Positions 17,353 to 27,700 of a stretch of DNA of 64,000 nucleotides are shown here, piece after piece; position 1 is the stretch's first letter, and each line of letters begins with the position of its first letter. Below the pieces are notes generated by a model, which worked only from the letters and a program-made list of their open reading frames with translations, was not told where the DNA came from and ran no database searches. Origin of the DNA: Diphasiastrum complanatum (taxonomy: Eukaryota; Streptophyta; Lycopodiopsida; Lycopodiales; Lycopodiaceae); assembly GCA_029204225.1 (NCBI GenBank), contig CM055113.1, forward strand, positions 20,729,798-20,793,797, in the 5' to 3' direction. Both the position numbers and the translations under genes were made by a program.

Positions 17353-17476
17353 AGCACCACCTCCACATCCACATCCACCTCCACCTCCACCTCCATCTCC
17401 ACCTCCACCTCCACCACCTCCTCCTCCACCACCACCACCACCACCACCTCCACCACCTCCACCACCACCACCTCCA
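17353..17476. repeat. (CCA/CCT)n trinucleotide microsatellite
   Basis: About 124 bp of CCA and CCT triplets. The plus frame reads as a run of prolines, the minus frames as glycine or tryptophan runs. It lies between the truncated LARD LTR and the H3-like relic. Confidence 0.95.
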
Positions 17477-17686
17477 AGTTCTGCCGTAGCTGGCCCAAGT
17501 AGGACCGTAGAGCGTGGCAAGGGTAGGCCGGCCCCTCGTGCAGCACCATGGGCTGGAAAGGAGCTCCATAGGATGCAGCCACCACCTCCTTGACCGTGCA
17601 GGAAGCACAGGATAGCTAAGCAATTAGCTCGAATGTTGATCATCCTCATGCACCAAACTAACTTTAAAAAAACCAATGCACAAAGG

Positions 17687-17977
17687 CATACAAAAAAACT
17701 TACAAAGTGGCTCCAAGATATAAGGAGGTATCAGAAGTCTGTAAAATTTCTAATACCTAGGGCCCCATTTGTGAGACTTGCTAAAGAAATAATCGATGAA
17801 TTTTTCTTGGGGAACAAAGTTATGGCAGATGTTGTGTCCGTGATACCAGAGTTTGCGAAAATGTACCTAATGCAGCTTTTCGAGGACTCATTTTTGTGTG
17901 CAGTACACGGGAAGAGAGTCACAATACTCCAGAAGGATCTCCACCTAGCTAGAAGGCTAAGGAGAGAGCGCAATTAA
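17687..17977 (+). pseudogene. CENH3-like histone H3 fold, without its N-terminal tail
   Basis: The last 97 codons of the frame ending at 17,977 align without internal gaps, apart from one loop residue, to the histone-fold part of H3. Helix N/alpha-1 reads [20 protein letters not shown], alpha-2 contains LMQLFED, and the end reads [11 protein letters not shown] then [15 protein letters not shown] and a stop. Three features point to centromeric H3 rather than canonical H3. LIPxAPFVRL replaces LIRKLPFQRL. Loop 1 is one residue longer than in H3. The segment before KD carries Q instead of P. The loop-1 tryptophan common in CENH3 is absent, and the alpha-2 start is diverged. No H3-type tail precedes it, so this is most likely a fragment or pseudogene. 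An unseen upstream exon is possible. Confidence 0.72.
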
Positions 17978-18560
17978 AAATATCATGTACATGATTTTAT
18001 TTATAATATACTGAAGATTTGGTGTTAAATATATTGAAGAATTTCAGGTTATATGAATGCATATTGTTGTGATTGAGTTTAATATCTAATTTCAGTACTA
18101 TTTATATGAATGCAGTGATTTGAAAATTTTAGTACCATCTATGTGAATGCAATGATTTAAAATTTTTAGTACTATGGGAATGGTGGTTTCTTGTAGCATG
18201 TTGTGGCTAAGATAGGTTTCCTTGCCTTGCGTGAAAATCATGCCCAGGTGCGACCAGGGGCTGTTTGACCAGGTCAAACGGCCCCTGGTCGCGGCTTGGC
18301 ATGATTTTCATGCCAGGGCAAAGACCCAAGAAATTTTTATCAGAGAAAAAAAAATTAAATTCTAAATTCAAAGAATAAGCACATCATATAATTACAACAG
18401 ATAATTAGGAGAGTCCACAAGAAAAAAACGACAAAATCTTTATTCACGTTCAGTCCATTTCCTTCAGAGAGGACTTCAGCTTCTTTGATCGATTTTCTGA
18501 TGACATTATTGGTTTTAACATTTCTAATGCTAATTTAGGAGCATCACTCTCATTCTCATA
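17978..18560. repeat. Spacer with a near-perfect long palindrome
   Basis: At 18,219-18,323 two arms of about 50 bp meet with almost no loop (centre GTTTGACC/AGGTCAAAC near 18,270). Before it, at 18,050-18,175, an AT-rich unit containing TGAATGCA(G/A)TGATTT occurs twice. No gene seen. Confidence 0.8.
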
Positions 18561-18563
18561 AGG

Positions 18564-19855
18564 TTAAACTCGAGAGAATGAGCCGGGTCTCGAATCAAGG
18601 ACAGAAATCATCCAAAATGGCTTTTCAGAGGACAAAGTAAGTCTTTGGAATTGACGATGACAACTCCACCTCACCAATGTGCTTGGAGAGCGCTTTGCAT
18701 TTAAGAAGCTCCATTGGTCCATTTGGACTGTACTTGTTGCTGAAGTAGAAAATAAAGTTGTTGGGCAAGTTCCCAATGTAGTGGGCCATAGACCTGTCCA
18801 GAGTTCCTGCTTCAACTTTCTCTCGAACGCCACCCCTTCGCATAGCAAATGCATCAAGCTCCACTGCATCCTGCATTTGGTTCACATTATTGCAAAATGA
18901 GTATAATGAAGACAAAGAAATATAACAAAAATACACAAGTGGAAGCTGAATTCCTTTGCCTTTGTACTTCACGTCAGCAGTTTTCCCTTCGAGTACTTTG
19001 AATGGCCTCATTTGAACTGGTGGTGGTTGAAGCGTTTTCAATTGGCAAAGCACTCTTTCCAGTGCTTGCTCGATGCTGTCCATGTCATGGCCGATCAACT
19101 TCTCATATGTGTCGTCGGGCTAGGTGTGGTCGAAAGTGGAACTGCCATTCTGCAAATTTACCAATGCCGCCAACATCTTATCTTCTCGCAAGTCAAAAAT
19201 ATGTTGCAAGTCATGCATGAACACATACTCTTGCCCATCAATGATGATTGGAGCAAGGCCATGGATTCGAAGCACGACATCATCGACTCATCTATATCGT
19301 CTGACTCCGTTGATGTGGATGCACCTGTTGTCTCTTGCGCAGCCAAGATTGTTTCGTGCTCCGCGGATAAATCTTACTCTTCTTTAGAGTCGTCCATCTC
19401 ATTCACCTGCTCACTAGGATTGTGTTTGTTGCGGGCCACAGTCGTTGGAAACTCATTAAGCAAAAAAATAACAGTAATCTCATTGGATAGAAACTTCCTT
19501 CCTACACTTTCAAAATCAAAAGTTTTCAGTTGATCCTTGGTCAGCTCCAAGTAATGATCGTTACCCAAGTGACTAATAAATCCGTTGAGACAAGCGATAA
19601 ATGGTCTATCTCCTTTCCATATATAACTAAGCAATTTATATAGAATCCACATGATAGTTGAGCCAGAAATTTGTATGGCATAAGGCTTCAAAGTCTCATC
19701 TATATACTCACTCACATACGTGAATGCATCCGTATTAGCCCATAGAGTGGCAAGCGTGTCTATTCTACCGGTGAACATACAATAAATATGACCTAATTGA
19801 TCTAAAACCTATGTGGGGGCTAGCAGATTGGCCAACTCTATTTTAGAGTATGACA
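18564..19855 (-). pseudogene. Unidentified multi-segment gene, broken
   Basis: Read on the minus strand. A frame opening at an ATG near 19,855 (MSYSKIELANLLAPT) meets a TAG and continues in frame to 19,374, with LDQLGHIYCMFTGRIDTLA and FISHLGNDHYLELTKDQL. A second block near 19,270-19,130 reads IDGQEYVFMHDLQHIFDL and is followed by a stop. A third (19,098-18,625) contains DMDSIEQALERVLCQL and, after a likely 66-bp intron with a GT start and TGCAG end near 18,880, a block with EAGTLDRSMAHYIGNLP. I recognise none of these. It lies downstream of RAG1-like copy 1 on the same strand, so it could be a second protein of that element or an unrelated gene relic. Confidence 0.4.
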
Positions 19856-20466
19856 TTGTGATGCAACAGAACATTAATTTACCAGCAAACTAGTAGTCTA
19901 ATTAAACAAGACAAACTAAATTACGAGGACAGAAATTTCAACAAAGCAAGAAGTGACAACAAAATGAAAACCCACACTCTTATATAGAGAGATGTGTTTC
20001 CAAAAATAGATATTATTATAAAACAAAATAAAACAATTTCTATTTATAACAACAATCCAATTCGTCAGTACTATTTATCACAAAGGAATATTCGAATTAC
20101 AATCCAACATAAATTGCTTTTATTCCATCTCATATGTTCCATAGCTTCTCTAGCGTTGTTTTTCAAAACATTGGATGTTGGTGTCCTCGGCATCCATCTC
20201 TTTCCAACTCGGACTCTAGACATCCTCCATTCTTGATGCCTTGGAGATTATTGAACTCAACTCTTCAGTTCTTGTGTTTTGAAAGTGTCCTCGGCCCAAA
20301 ACTCCTCTGTAAAATCATTGGAATATCTCAACCAATGCATTACTAAGACCCTTTCCGCCGCCATTTTGAAATATGCAGCCTTTGCCTTGTAATGACTCTT
20401 TTCCATGCCTTGCGTATTCCAGATGGCTAATGATCCATAGGTTTTCATAAACCAAGGTCCATGAGC

Positions 20467-20556
20467 CTAAGATGTGTTGTTCATAAAAAAATTTGTATTA
20501 GTTTAAATCTTTATAAATACATAAATACGAAAGTAAAAAATATGAGACACACATAC
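20467..20556 (-). other. 90-bp intron in RAG1-like copy 1, just before the glutamate exon
   Basis: The donor reads TATATG|GTATGTG and the acceptor ATCTTAG|GCTCAT. Splicing joins THYM to AHGPWF in frame (phase 0), placing the histidine pair next to each other as in RAG1. Copy 2 has an intron at the same place, but its donor is weak (GTCAAT). Confidence 0.8.
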
Positions 20557-21573
20557 CATATAGTGAGTTATGTGTGTTTCTCCCCATGCATCGATCATCG
20601 ATTCAATAAATGTTTTGACTTCTCTTGCGTATCTATCCAAATATTCATCTCTCACAATCTTTTTGTTGATAGTTTGTGACAAGGCATCAAATGCTTGCCA
20701 AACCTTAGCACGTGTACTTTCCATGCGAGGACCTGAGCCAATATTTGTTGTGCATTGACATATTTTTTTCTAGTACTCCCATTCAACACTGCTTTCACGT
20801 GCAGTATGATTTGACAATAAGTGTCTTGCTTTCGCACCACCCATTGAAACTTTTGTTGGAACATCTTGCATTTTTCCACTCATCTCAACGTCTTTGGTAA
20901 GACTCACATGGCCCCCATGCAATCCCATATCAGATAAAATTTATCTCTAGATTTTTAATGCTAACATCTGCTCTTGATTTGGGCCACATTTTCCATGCGT
21001 AACAACAATGCAAAAATAATAATTTGTCCAGTATTCGTAATTCACCATGCATTGTGCAAAAATGAACTCTTTCGAGAGGAATGTTCAACACAGGACTCCA
21101 AGCTTTGTCAAGATTGTGCCTATTTGGTGCAAGACGTTGGTTGCAATTCGAAATACTTTTGTTCCGCCCAGATTCAAACATACAATATATACAAAAATTC
21201 TTTGCATTTGCACCCAAACCACAACCGTACATGCATTCCAAGGTCTTCAAATCAGCAGCTAGGTGCCATTCTACAGCAAAGCTTTCTCCTTCAACATTGA
21301 GCTTTTTGCCTTTATTTTGTGCATGTATTATCTTAGATATACTACATTTTTCAAATAGCCACTCTAGTATGTCATGAGACTCCTTAGAAACTTCAAATGC
21401 AGCTATCCACCATATGTGATTTTTGGATTGCACGCTAAATTCTTTACAATAATTTTCGCCAAACTGTTGCAATTCACGATTCATCAAGGTGATTGTGACA
21501 CATTCAAGTTTACGCCCTTTTATGATTTCTGTTTCGTCCAACTTAATAACAAATATAACTTTACCTTCAAAAT

Positions 21574-21660
21574 CTGTAAAACAAAAAATTCATTACGAAA
21601 ACATATTGGTTGAAGAAAAGCATACAATTGAATACTGAAATTCACAATAAATGTTCTCAC
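21574..21660 (-). other. 87-bp intron in RAG1-like copy 1
   Basis: The donor reads AAATG|GTGAGA and the acceptor TTTTACAG|ATTTTG on the minus strand. Splicing joins KVETN to DFEGKVIFVIKLDE in frame (phase 1). Copy 2 has no intron at this position. Confidence 0.75.
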
Positions 21661-22859
21661 CATTTGTTTCAACTTTGTAATGTCGAATCATCATCGCTTG
21701 GACCTTTTCCAGACCTAAGAATATATTGTTGCCTTGACGATAATAAAAACATGTCGAAGGTCCTTTCTTCTTATTGGTTACTGCAAAAGAATCCTCAATA
21801 TGCTGAAACTCTCCTAATTCAGAGAGCAAAATCGAATTGCATTCTCGTTTGGTAGATTCAACAAGTTTATAAGTAGGTATTATTTGATGGCGTTTTAACC
21901 CATTTTTGTCAGAGCGTTTCATATACTTCTTCAAAGATCTATACCCCTTGCGAGTCACACCTCCTTGGTCACATGCATACACCATCTCTTTAACATTTGG
22001 ATTTGGCTTGAACTTGTCGACTAGTTTTTTTGCAATTCTCAAGCGAATTGAATCATTTGTTTCATCTTCCACAATCTTAATCAAATCTTTACCCTTCAAA
22101 AAATGTTTCATATATTTTTCGGCAATAAAATCTTTTCCATCCATCTTTTGCAAGAACTCTTTTGTGTCCCTCATACATCTTTTATTGGCACCACCACCTG
22201 GTGCCAAAGCTTCTAGTTTGTGTCTCTTAGTATTTTCATTTTTTGCTTGCTGATCCATCGAGACTCTACGCTTTCGTTGTAAGCCATATATTGTCCTCTG
22301 AAATATACTGATTGAAGATTGCAATTCTTCAATTTTTGCAACAGAACTGGCAAGCTCTATTTTCAAACCGTTTATCTCCTGTTCCAATTTCATATTTATT
22401 CCATGCAATGACTTTAAATTGTCATTCATACTCAAGATATGAATGTTTGCCGTATTTGCCAATGTCTCAGCTTGGATTCTTCGAGAATCCATTGCTTGAC
22501 AATAGCCAAGCAGATTATTTCAACCATCCCCAATGAACGTTAACAAACTATGTACATCAAAAAATTTAGGAGGAGCATTTACCAGTGGATTATGAGGGTA
22601 TAAATCATCTCTTACCCATAGGTCAATATGTTTTTTGCCTTCTAATCTCCAACAATGCATCTCATACGAATTTAAGTTAACACCCCATGCAGCTTTGGTG
22701 GTTGCATAATCCTTCTCTATCTAGCAAACCATTCAACATAACCTGGACTATTTCACCATCTTTATGCTTTCATCAGTGCATGCTAGATCATCACTTAAGG
22801 ACTTAACCCTCAAGACAAATGCATGAGCACTTTCTCCCTCTCTTTGTCTACTAGAAAAT

Positions 22860-23190
22860 ATTTGCCTCCTTAGGTCAATACCCTAGATGTGGACTTGTAT
22901 TCAAAGAGTTTCTTCAAGGCATTCCATGCCTCACTTGCACTTTGAATTTTATCAACTTCCTTGAGAAGTTCATTGGTAGCATTCATTTTAATGATATGAA
23001 GAGACCTTTTAGTCCTCTTATCAAACCTTTGTTGCTTTTGAACTGTGGCTGGTCTCTCTTCAGTTTTTGCAACTATGTCCATGAGTTCATTCAACTCAAG
23101 TAAGGATTTCATCCTCACTTTCCAGGTAGAGTAGTCTGATGAACTCAACCTATCATTAGTTTCTAACATGATCCCACCATTGGAAGCCAT
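22860..23190 (-). pseudogene. Copia gag fragment (element D)
   Basis: A minus-strand frame with an ATG at 23,190: DYSTWKVRMKSLLE, then TKRSLHIIKMN and EAWNALKKLFEYKS, the usual opening of a copia capsid protein. It continues weakly to about 22,690 and ends near RAG1-like copy 1. At 23,191-23,240 it abuts plus-strand copia sequence head to head. Confidence 0.8.
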
Positions 23191-23240
23191 GAATATAATG
23201 ATTCTTCAACAATCCAAGTATGCTCTTTCAATGGTAAAAA

Positions 23241-23740
23241 AAGTTCAATATGCTAGATTGTAAGAGTATTGGTACTCCTATGGAGCAAATTGTAAAAGAC
23301 CCTAACAAAGGTGATGAAAGATCCTTTGTGGACATCACTCTATTTAGAAGTCTTATAGGCTCCTTAATTTGGCTCACCATAACTAGGCCTAATGTAGGTT
23401 TTAATGTTCATAAGTTGAGCCAAGCTATGCAAAATCCTACTATTCATCATTGGAAAATGGCCAAAAGGGTACTTAGGTACATATCTTCAACTATGATTAT
23501 GGTTTGCTATACAAAAGTGAAGATCTTTCTATTGTTGGCTATTCTGACTCGGATTTTGCTAGTGATAAAGTAGATTGGAAATCTACAAGTGCATATGTTA
23601 TATACCTTGGAGGAAATTTAATATCTAGGCTTTCCAAAAAGCAACATACCATATTACTCTCATCTTGTGAAGCTAAATATAAGGCACTTATTACTACAAC
23701 AAAAGAAGTGCTTTGGATCAAGAGTTGCTTGTGGAACTAA
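23241..23740 (+). pseudogene. Copia RT carboxyl end and RNase H fragment
   Basis: The plus frames contain CKSIGTPME, then FRSLIGSLIWLTITRPN, HWKMAKRVLRYI and SDSDFASDKVDWKSTSAYV, then SSCEAKYKA. This is the end of copia RT and the RNase H domain, with one frameshift near 23,510. It is followed at 23,740-24,000 by what may be LTR sequence. Confidence 0.8.
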
Positions 23741-25398
23741 AGATTATCAAGGAAGATGATGTACCAGTTGAAAAATGTAAAATCGTCTATCTTGAATTTA
23801 GACTTTTGTCAAAGGATTTTGTATGTCTATGTGATGTTTCATATTGTAAATGCCAAATTTGGCCTAGAAGAAACTCGAGCTACATGGTTTCTTGAGACTA
23901 GTTGGTCATATACAACATGCATATAGAATATAGACATAGAAATGTTAATTATGGGCTTGTAGAAACTCGTGGCACATCACATGCAACGGTTGTAAGTGTT
24001 CCATAGTGACATGGAAATAAGGATAATGCACATCTAATTAGATGCATACGCTAGCAAAGAATTTCTTCATGACAATACTACCATAGAATCTGATACAAGA
24101 TCTGATGATAAATAGTTGACACTTTGTATAATACAATCAATACATTTACATTAGGTATTGCTCCTCTCTTGTTCAATGAATTTGCAAAGCAATTCTGAAC
24201 ATGTCATGATGATCTTCTACTCAACAATCATCTAATTTTCTCTTCTTGTATGAACTTGCATGCTTTTCTAAACTTGTTATATTGTGTGGACTTTGTTATA
24301 TGTCGAATCTGAACTCTACGGTAGAACCACTAAAACAATTGACAAATGTAGTTTCGTTTTTCAATGGTTCCTCCATGTTGTGTGAAATGCTGCTTGTGCT
24401 TGCTAGTGTGACTTCTCCATCCCTTGCGATGACCATACACTCAAGCTTCCATATGTATTTGCAAAAAATGTTGTATGATCTCTTAGTATGTGCTGCATTT
24501 GTCAAAATCATAATGTTAGTCTTATGTTTAGATCTAAATATATATGAAAATTTGAAAGCATTTTGAAAATTTTATATTGACCATGTAATGAGTGATGTGA
24601 TTTTCTCCCCATGCTTTTGATATTGCATTAACAAACTCGACACAAGTCCTTTGGACAGCTTTCTTATCAATATCTAAGTATTTTTCTTTTCTTAAAATAG
24701 CAATCATACTATCAAGTTTTTTCCATACATCAACTTTTAGTACTTTGGTTTTGCCGTCTTTCTCGAAGTCTTGAGTGGCAGCAATAATATATGTCCAGAC
24801 TGAGTGTTGAATATTAGAAGCCTTACCAATATGATTTGATAGAAAACGACGTGCTTTTGCTCCTCCTATGCTTGGCTTAGTTGGCATGTTCCCATTCTTT
24901 CTTGAAAGCTTTTCATCTTTTTGAATTTTGACATGTCCTTTATGGAGTCCTGCTTTTGATAAAACATCTTCTAATCGAGAGATAGCTTCCTTTGCTAATG
25001 ATGCTGGCTTAGTATTCCAAGCAGAAACTATATGAAGATAAATGATCTTTTCTATTAATCTAACTTCTGCATGAAGAGTGCAAACATGCACATTTTTTAA
25101 GGGGATAGGCAGCACATGCTTCCAGTTTGGATCTGCATATTCTCTAGTAATTCTTGTACTCCTAGTTACATCTTTTGCCATTTTCATGCAATACAAACAA
25201 GGGTGTTTTGATGTAGCACTGTGAGAGACATTATACATACATTTCAATGTTTTCAAATCACCTACTAAGTGCCATTCAACATTGAAGTCTCCAACTCTTG
25301 GAACATTGAGAAATCCTCCATCCATATGGTCCTTGATGATCCTAGGATAAGATATCCTTGAGAATATCCATTAATATATCATGATCCTCTTTCAGCAC

Positions 25399-25479
25399 CT
25401 GTCCAAAGAATTAATCATACTTAGTTTACAATGTATTAATACTATTCAATGAATGTAATGTAATAATGAGGCTAGTTAC
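25399..25479 (-). other. 81-bp intron in RAG1-like copy 2
   Basis: The donor reads TTTCAG|GTAACT and the acceptor TTTGGACAG|GTGCTG. It joins AAFQ to VLKEDHDIL; copy 1 reads AAFEVSKESHDIL without any interruption, so the intron is present in one paralogue only. Confidence 0.75.
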
Positions 25480-26149
25480 CTGAAACGCTGCCAACCACCA
25501 TATATCATTTTCTGACTGGACACTGAATTTAAAATCTTCTTGATTCTCTATGTGGGATAGAGCACCATTCATGAAAGTTATACTAACCCTTTCCATCTTC
25601 TACCCTTTCACAATTTCTGACTCATCTAACTTAAGTACTATGATTATTTTGCCATTCACCTTTTCATAGGTTATATCATAGAATGTGACGATGTATTTCA
25701 GCAAGTAATTTAGATCAACAAATAAATTGTTTGATGAATTATAGGATATCGATCTTCCATCAGTTTCATACACCTCCTCAATATGAAATGGAGTTTCAGT
25801 GATCTTACGCATACCTATGTTTAATGTATCTCTCTCTTTCTTCAAGTGGTATGTCTTAGGGATTGGGACTTTTCTAATTTGAACTTGCTTAAAAGCTTCT
25901 CTAATTAGTTTAAATATTGTTGCATATGCTTCCCTACTAATACCTGCAAAATCACAAGCACCCTGAACTATAGTCTTATCTAAAATATTTTGAATGTCCA
26001 CCATCAAAGACTCTGTTATTTTACACTTTATATTTGAAATCCTATTGTTCATCATGATATGCTTAGTGGATTTGCAAGTCAATATTGTGCCCAATGACAT
26101 TCCTAGTGAAGCACTGTCTTTAATATTTCGAGGAACTACTAATGCAGAT

Positions 26150-26243
26150 CTGCAAAAAAAACAGATAGTTAACAGAATATCACCATAGCTGAAATTAAAT
26201 TCAAATGTCATTGAAAAACTTACAAAATTTAGAATATGCTTAC
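26150..26243 (-). other. 94-bp intron in RAG1-like copy 2
   Basis: The donor reads TTCAA|GTAAGC and the acceptor TTTTTTTGCAG|ATCTGC on the minus strand, joining the basic amino region to the ALVVPRNI segment. Confidence 0.7.
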
Positions 26244-26869
26244 TTGAATGCACGGATCCTTCTATTTCGATAACCTCCTTTTGAAAGCGTTTGAATATCC
26301 TTGCAACTTTGTCGCTTTCGCTTCTTACTTTCAGCCTTCTTCTTTACCAAATCCACATCCTTCAGTAATTGTAAGTTTTCAATACAAATAGACTGTAAGA
26401 CTGAATGCATCTACTCTAGTTTTGATTTGATATTAATTGCTATCTTCTGTAATGATTCGTTATTTTTTTTAAGTTGTTCATTTTCTTCTAACGTCTTTTG
26501 GAGATGACAATCTCTATTATGACAATAAGAGGATATCCAAATTAACTCACCTTCTAAAAAGTGAATTTTATTTATATAAAGATGTTTTCCATGGTTCAAT
26601 CTTTCACAATATCCTAGTAATCCACTATGCCCATTGCATATCCATGTAACTAAATGAGTTATTGAAGAGAATGTGGGATGTGTCAAAGTGCTTGGATCTT
26701 GTGGATATAATGTTCCATCTGTCCACAAATCCACGTTTTTTTTTTCCTTCTGCCTTGTAACGAGAACAATCTTTAGCAGATATTTGAACTCCTTTGCCTC
26801 CTCTTCTCTGCAAAGGTGCCAAATCAACAGGGATATCCACATGTAGATGATATAATGTCATCATAAAAA

Positions 26870-27700
26870 TAATAATAGAGTAATCAGTTGCATCAAAGTA
26901 CTATGACCAGATTCTATGAAGCAAAACAAAATACTCATCTTTGATTATATTATATACTATGTACGATCAATCCAATTTCCATGCTTGTATGCTTGATTCA
27001 AATTTGGAAATGCCGCTCATTTTTTCATTCCAATAGGTAGTTGGCGCTCATATTTCCATTATCGTGGAAGGAATGCATATGTAAACATTTTGCAATTTTT
27101 CCTAATTCGAATTTGGGGATGGCAGTCATATTCTAGATCTAGTGAAAATATTGCCCTTTTCGTAACCAATGGACAGAATATTTTTGAATTTAGTCAAGTT
27201 ATACTGCAAACTGTTAACAGTTCTTAACTGTGACTATAGAAACTGTGGTTAGATCATTGGGAGTTGGGGAGGCCTTGGGAGTGGTGTGGGCAAGCAAATA
27301 AACAATATTGTTTTATTTATTTTGATATTTTTGTATATCCTACATGGCATTCCTTAAAGGGTCTTTTTGATATTGAGAACTCCTCTAATGGAAGGTGACA
27401 TTCCCCTCCTTGAAAAAATGTAGACATCCATGTAACAGTTTTGACATCACACAATAAAATATTCACATTAAAGTATGAGTATATTGAGCACACATAATAG
27501 TGGACACTTCATTAATAAATGGTAAACTACCTTTTCGCTTGCAATAATACCAATCTAGAGGTTGCTAGCACTCCAAGGAAAAAAAATGGCCAAATATCAT
27601 GCAAAATTTTAAAGGCAATGCAAACAAACATAAAAGGTGCAGAAATACCTCCACACCATCCTCAATCCTACCAAATGGTTCCACGCCACATAGCACCACT
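26870..27700. other. AT-rich spacer, no gene seen
   Basis: No convincing frame. The right part (27,420-27,700) may be the LTR of the copia fragment that follows, but no paired LTR was found. Confidence 0.4.

Follow-up and report, generated by a model that had tools for sequence, protein, structure and literature searches.

Most known transposases of the RAG1 type come from animals, where one of them became the V(D)J recombinase that shuffles antibody genes. The heptamer of the recombination signal sequence (RSS) is CACAGTG. Transib ends resemble this heptamer according to Kapitonov and Koonin 2015 (PMC4411706), which served as our yardstick for Transib, and Kojima 2025 describes C and H motifs as common to the CMCT clade. 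A Transib is reported from a mycorrhizal fungus (PMC11075540), a table for the cork oak genome gives 0 elements in a class that includes Transib (PMC5963338), and a literature search on plant Transib and RAG1 showed no paper on a plant RAG1/Transib transposase among the titles and abstract openings listed. Here we describe a 64,000-nucleotide stretch of the genome of the lycopod Diphasiastrum complanatum (contig CM055113.1, positions 20,729,798 to 20,793,797; "the window"), in which an initial annotation had recognized two paralogous genes, copy 1 and copy 2, with the core architecture of RAG1. Very probably, the two genes are dead members of two diverged lineages of a cut-and-paste plant transposon that has the RAG1 fold, is present in high copy number and carries a histone H3-like gene. 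The family is best read as a branch of RAG1-fold ("CMCT") transposases in land plants that may be the same as Lanisha.

Copy 1 and copy 2 both lie on the minus strand, and each is a decayed transposase gene with in-frame stops and frame breaks; their cores are 40% identical across 140 residues. The transposase frames of copy 2 (24415..26857; several exons, stops and one frame break) contain the first catalytic D (25624..25626), the second catalytic D at the position of RAG1 D708 (25257..25259), a C-x2-C corresponding to RAG1 C727 and C730 (25188..25199, with the cysteines at 25197-25199 and 25188-25190), the LHA histidine in CTLHA corresponding to H795 (25071..25073), an H-x4-H corresponding to H937 and H942 (24475..24492, with the histidines at 24490-24492 and 24475-24477) and the catalytic E corresponding to E962 (24415..24417). 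Copy 2 is readable over its last intron (24493..24581, GT..AG, 89 nt), and HILRDH..GSLSVWSSQGMEKSH aligns there without a gap with HKTLAH..GSIGAWASEGNESGN of RAG1. Copy 1, from the second, diverged lineage (20257..22722; stops and frame breaks), has a D in KLDETEI (21536-21538), a D in AADLKT (21251-21253), a C-x2-C (21191-21193 and 21182-21184), the H of CTMHGE (21047-21049), the H of AHGPW (20461-20463) and the E of QGMEKS (20401-20403). The ordered series of D, D, C-x2-C, H pair and E that had been claimed for both copies is complete in copy 2; in copy 1 it lacks the first H of the pair, which is unreadable in frame at a break around the last intron. The coordinates agree with the spacings given before, that is, 20 residues from the second D to the first C and 3 from C to C in both copies, 95 from D to D in copy 1, and 20 from the last H to E in copy 1, a distance that copy 2 shares. 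Only the distance from the last C to the first H in copy 2 has to be corrected, from 200 to 203 residues (RAG1, 207).

A search with the read-through of copy 1 yielded 4 proteins (6,165 candidates), and a profile of the best relatives yielded 29 at E<=10 (7,994 scored), all of which have E<=1e-13 and lack a precomputed Pfam domain. Relative P0010 spans the whole core, and the relatives with a named host, P0004 and P0029, are both from the fern Adiantum nelumboides. No homologue was found in viral contigs (42 pattern stretches) or prokaryote contigs (18 pattern stretches). Across the 17 aligned rows, which comprise relatives and copies and include those of the window, conservation is more than chance: first D, 17/17; second D, 16/17; the two C residues, 15/16 each; H of LHA, 16/17; A-R, 14/14 and 12/14; H pair, 3/3 and 4/4; and E, 4/4. 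The H, H and E columns rest on few rows because most relatives are cut where the frame enters the last intron. P0004 is annotated with peptide-transporter Pfam domains and terminates in pieces of the transposase family (KLDECE, ESLAIWSTQGMEKTH); it is probably a transposon copy absorbed into a gene model.

AlphaFold models of two diverged relatives, derived from different alignments, were compared with known structures. Ranks 1-35 and 1-34, respectively, were occupied by RAG1, amphioxus RAGL and HzTransib. Foldseek gave E values of 2e-7 and 2e-8, and its matches at E<=1e-3 were RAG1 and HzTransib only (10/10 and 11/11). Both predicted models have an RNase H-like core and the RAG1 domain order. 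In hhalign, the family core and mouse RAG1 gave a single alignment of 321 columns, in which RAG1 D708, C727, C730, H795, R855, H937, H942 and E962 (numbering derived from chain 503-1011) correspond to family D508, C528, C531, H591, R665, H761, H766 and E785, with C and H residues of the zinc site at the positions of C727, C730, H937 and H942. D600 of RAG1 is matched only via its place in the first strand, and the local alignment begins downstream of it. The score of this alignment by itself was non-significant, being equalled by 1 of 100 shuffles, although shuffle alignments never exceeded 182 columns. With 57 animal Transib proteins, the core gave P values of 2.2e-4 to 4.6e-4 (best of 60 decoys, 0.035), and P was 1.2e-5 when RAG1 was added to the Transib set; single Transib proteins (n = 44) ranged from 9e-5 to 0.64 with a median of 0.017, and with longer profiles the alignment favoured an N-terminal stretch. 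Sequence searches of the PDB with P0002 and the family profile returned no transposase and mostly coiled coils. The models and the RAG1 alignment show a predicted RAG1/Transib fold for the transposase family, with the second D, the E and the zinc-site residues in RAG1 register. The RAG1-like core proposed in the initial annotation is supported, since both outcomes named as arguments against it, a match to another transposase superfamily and a fold unlike that of RAG1, were looked for in window pieces and relatives and not found: no Pfam family reached the cut-off with 8 window pieces and 3 relatives, and the models of two relatives matched RAG1 and HzTransib. Models of hAT, CMC and KDZ were not among the Pfam matches, nor were such chains among the structure matches listed, which does not by itself exclude them.

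The further copies and terminal inverted repeats (TIRs) that had been suggested as a check were indeed found in the host genome (1.74 Gb, 5,176 contigs). The copy 2 core gave 3,404 first-look candidates and the copy 1 core gave 718; the 40 scored for each, the window locus aside, were 96-97% and 94-95% identical, respectively. The copy 2 lineage, of which 20 loci were fetched, is a TIR-bounded element of 8-9.5 kb with 35-bp inverted ends beginning CATTAGAGGA. Both ends and the 35-bp TIR are present in three elements of 9,480, 8,165 and 9,198 bp, and a fourth two-ended element, with an internal deletion, measures 5,572 bp. Copy 2 itself comprises the 5' 3,379 bp of such an element (24012..27390, minus strand, left end at 27390), the remainder being missing at the window locus. 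Its long alignments with the left parts of the three TIR-bounded elements have 94.2-96.0% identity, and its 35-bp left TIR (CATTAGAGGAGTTCTCAATATCAAAAAGACCCTTT, 27356..27390, minus strand) is 97-100% identical to their inverted right ends. Eight of ten left ends examined, the window among them, begin exactly CATTAGAGGAG, one begins CACTAG, and one copy is without the end; the left flanks differ between loci, except for L017 versus L018. Exact matches to the 22-nt end number 1,437 in the host genome, against 0 for the reversed control. A right end was not found for L012, L026 and L028, and L023 gave a poor match only. A scan for TIRs and target duplications in the window alone, with no shuffle control shown, gave only short scattered pairs, and the ends were identified from other copies.

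The 5-bp target duplications expected from the initial annotation did not appear in any of four independent insertions with both ends, whose flanks are gctat/ctccc (L017), ggtat/cattg (L025), ccaaa/aaacc (L019) and cgtag/ctccc (L027). Duplications of 2-5 bp were limited to AAA in one of the four, with none in the other three. L018 and L020 are segmental duplicates of L017 and L019, with both flanks in common. The ends (CATTAGAGGAGTTC) do not resemble the RSS heptamer and are not of the Transib type; the termini CATTAG..CTAATG have the 5'-CA..TG-3' of the CMCT clade and, being CATTA, are not the CACTA ends of EnSpm/CACTA. In the copy 1 lineage, the transposase region (approximately 20241-22722) is 92.9-94.5% identical to seven other loci, and the region 3' of the transposase (18949..20243, minus strand) has parts common to other copies at 90.6-92.9%. 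Open reading frames (ORFs) 18625-19119 and 19374-19808 of the copy 1 element matched no Pfam family at E<=0.01.

Both lineages carry an H3-like gene at a recurring place. In the copy 1 element it is an ORF of 127 amino acids (17594..17977, plus strand, opposite to the transposase; Pfam Histone, E 4.4e-23), and in copy 2-lineage elements it lies inside, downstream of the transposase (Pfam Histone, 1.8e-26), in 15 of the 20 fetched loci. The copy 2-lineage protein is about half identical to H3 across the fold and 40% identical to the product of the window ORF. Of 13 H3-like copies read, 2 are stop-free duplicates with 3 differing sites in the compared parts, and 7 have one common stop. Among 39 other scored places of window-type H3 in the genome, 9 pair with a transposase or marker place 2.0-3.0 kb away in the orientation of the window and one further place is paired at 6.4 kb, as judged by eye from partial lists for 10 of the 39. 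In one more copy 1-lineage locus, which was read directly, the H3-like frame is free of stops and shows 83% identity over 92 residues. We also considered CENH3 as the identity of the element H3s but dropped it, because their scores with H3.1 exceed those with Arabidopsis CENH3 (89 versus 69, 82 versus 72, and 106 versus 85 bits). To our knowledge, no other transposon has a core histone variant as cargo. Adjoining the H3-like gene in the window is a hairpin (18225-18317) of two 46-nt arms, 87% complementary and 1 nt apart, and a CCACCT-type simple repeat with a poly-Pro or poly-Gly reading (17370-17490) lies directly upstream of the H3-like frame.

The abundance of H3 genes and the different strands in the two lineages could be cited for the H3-like ORF being a chance neighbour outside the elements, but the three TIR-bounded elements contain the gene, and it is found again and again at a similar distance in either lineage, which makes this explanation very improbable. 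A family identity with Lanisha, a superfamily already named in 2020, is conceivable, although we would not bet on it. Its authors, Maumus, McDaniel and Carey, reportedly work on moss genomes, and the motifs fit. Kojima 2025 cites Maumus, McDaniel and Carey 2020 and places Lanisha in the CMCT clade with RAG1, but it also states that Lanisha resembles EnSpm, whereas the plant family has no match to the EnSpm Pfam model.

If the family were a very divergent plant CACTA/EnSpm, RAG1 would top the structure list merely for want of a CACTA structure. C-x2-C, an H pair and an H-to-E distance of 20 do occur in a CACTA consensus, the motif sharing is described in PMC12730594, and the elements of the family begin CA and finish TG. 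However, PF02992 and PF13960 were absent at E<=10 from the 8 window pieces and 3 relatives, whereas the CACTA consensus, as a positive control, matched them at 1e-114 and 1e-56. Moreover, H-x4-H and G-x-x-A-R follow RAG1/Transib, the CACTA consensus having H-x3-H, and the family ends are CATTA, not CACTA. The hhalign comparison with this single consensus (P 0.037, reached by 4 of 100 shuffles) also speaks against this reading, although it is a weak test, RAG1 alone being weak as well. Altogether, a CACTA origin is unlikely. According to Kojima 2025, the C and H motifs are shared across the CMCT clade and so are no mark of RAG1 on their own; it is the fold, together with H-x4-H, the A-R motif and the scores of the profiles, that speaks for the RAG1/Transib side of that clade. 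A true plant Transib would explain the close fold and the best profile match among those tried, but none of the 4 insertions has a 5-bp duplication and the ends do not look like the Transib/RSS heptamer; with the H3 cargo and a long coiled-coil N-terminal part in addition, it is improbable. Kinship with RAG1 is thus supported and Transib membership is not; because a 5-bp duplication and Transib-type ends were looked for and not found, the family is filed only as a RAG1-fold, CMCT-type land-plant transposon and not in Transib.

For this RAG1-fold transposon, a transposase dimer would bind the 35-bp TIRs, the DDE site would nick and cleave at the C of 5'-CATTAG, and re-insertion of the element would leave a target duplication that is very short or lacking. 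The H3-like protein could be an accessory acting on the chromatin of the element or of the target. We tentatively propose, as a plausible but by no means settled extension, a separate high-copy land-plant branch of the RAG1 fold that inserts without a 5-bp duplication and keeps its own H3 variant in two lineages for use in transposition. Retention of the variant in lineages whose cores are 40% identical suggests such a use and, if so, the histone may position the element in chromatin or shield it there. If the RAG1 core is shared by a large plant branch, this would widen the known ancestry of the enzyme, provide a natural outgroup for telling the old parts of RAG1 from later ones and add a transposon with a core histone variant as cargo; we do not claim that it is unpublished. 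Relative to the initial annotation, the ends of the element, its copy number and the histone gene are new.

On host contig C1, 64.97-66.68 Mb holds 28 of the first 100 ends listed, all of which are on C1 (up to 97.8 Mb), where 1.8 would be expected; in 2,000 simulations no 2-Mb interval held more than 11. The 84-nt left end has 80 exact places, 68 of them on large contigs, with 12 neighbours within 0.5 Mb versus 1.9 simulated, the sizes of some contigs being estimated. The C1 cluster may mark a centromere, or it may stem from local hopping or from a block that was duplicated. Centromere targeting was considered as a possible cause, but none of the 9 listed C1 places of the copy 1-lineage marker falls in the cluster, this marker clusters elsewhere (all 7 listed C15 places within 1.2 Mb, C15:30.66-31.87 Mb) and segmental duplicates (L017/L018 and L019/L020) inflate the counts. 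The copy 2 element also has an opposite-strand frame (MASSSSSS..), seen at L025:6600-7382 (MASSSSSSQESGLSSF..), with a CPYCNKKC stretch and no Pfam match; most fetched copies contain it, and L017 and L018 have it twice. Between the two window copies, and belonging to neither, is a copia-type gag fragment (22873..23205, minus strand; PF14223, E 1.6e-8). The content of the window is plant-like, with an AP2 domain and copia and Ty3-type pieces, and there was no Rfam match and no tRNA in it.

Compared with Transib (HzTransib), the plant family differs in its TIR sequence, in that no 5-bp duplication was found, in its element size of approximately 8-9.5 kb and in its H3 cargo, but it has the same fold, and profile alignment matches the H pair as well as the LHA and G-x-x-A-R stretches. 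From the CMCT clade it may be set apart by the lack of a clear 2-5 bp duplication and by the H3 cargo, which goes unmentioned in the consulted portion of Kojima 2025; C(2)C and H(3-4)H between the second D and E and the 5'-CA..TG-3' ends are shared. RAG1 and RAGL (ProtoRAG) differ in that the plant family has a plant host, a TIR that is not an RSS, no RAG2 partner seen and a long coiled coil predicted on the N-terminal side of the matched part. In common with them, it has the predicted fold over approximately RAG1 460-955, with D, C-x2-C, LH, A-R, H-x4-H and G-S-x3-W-x3-G-x-E in register.
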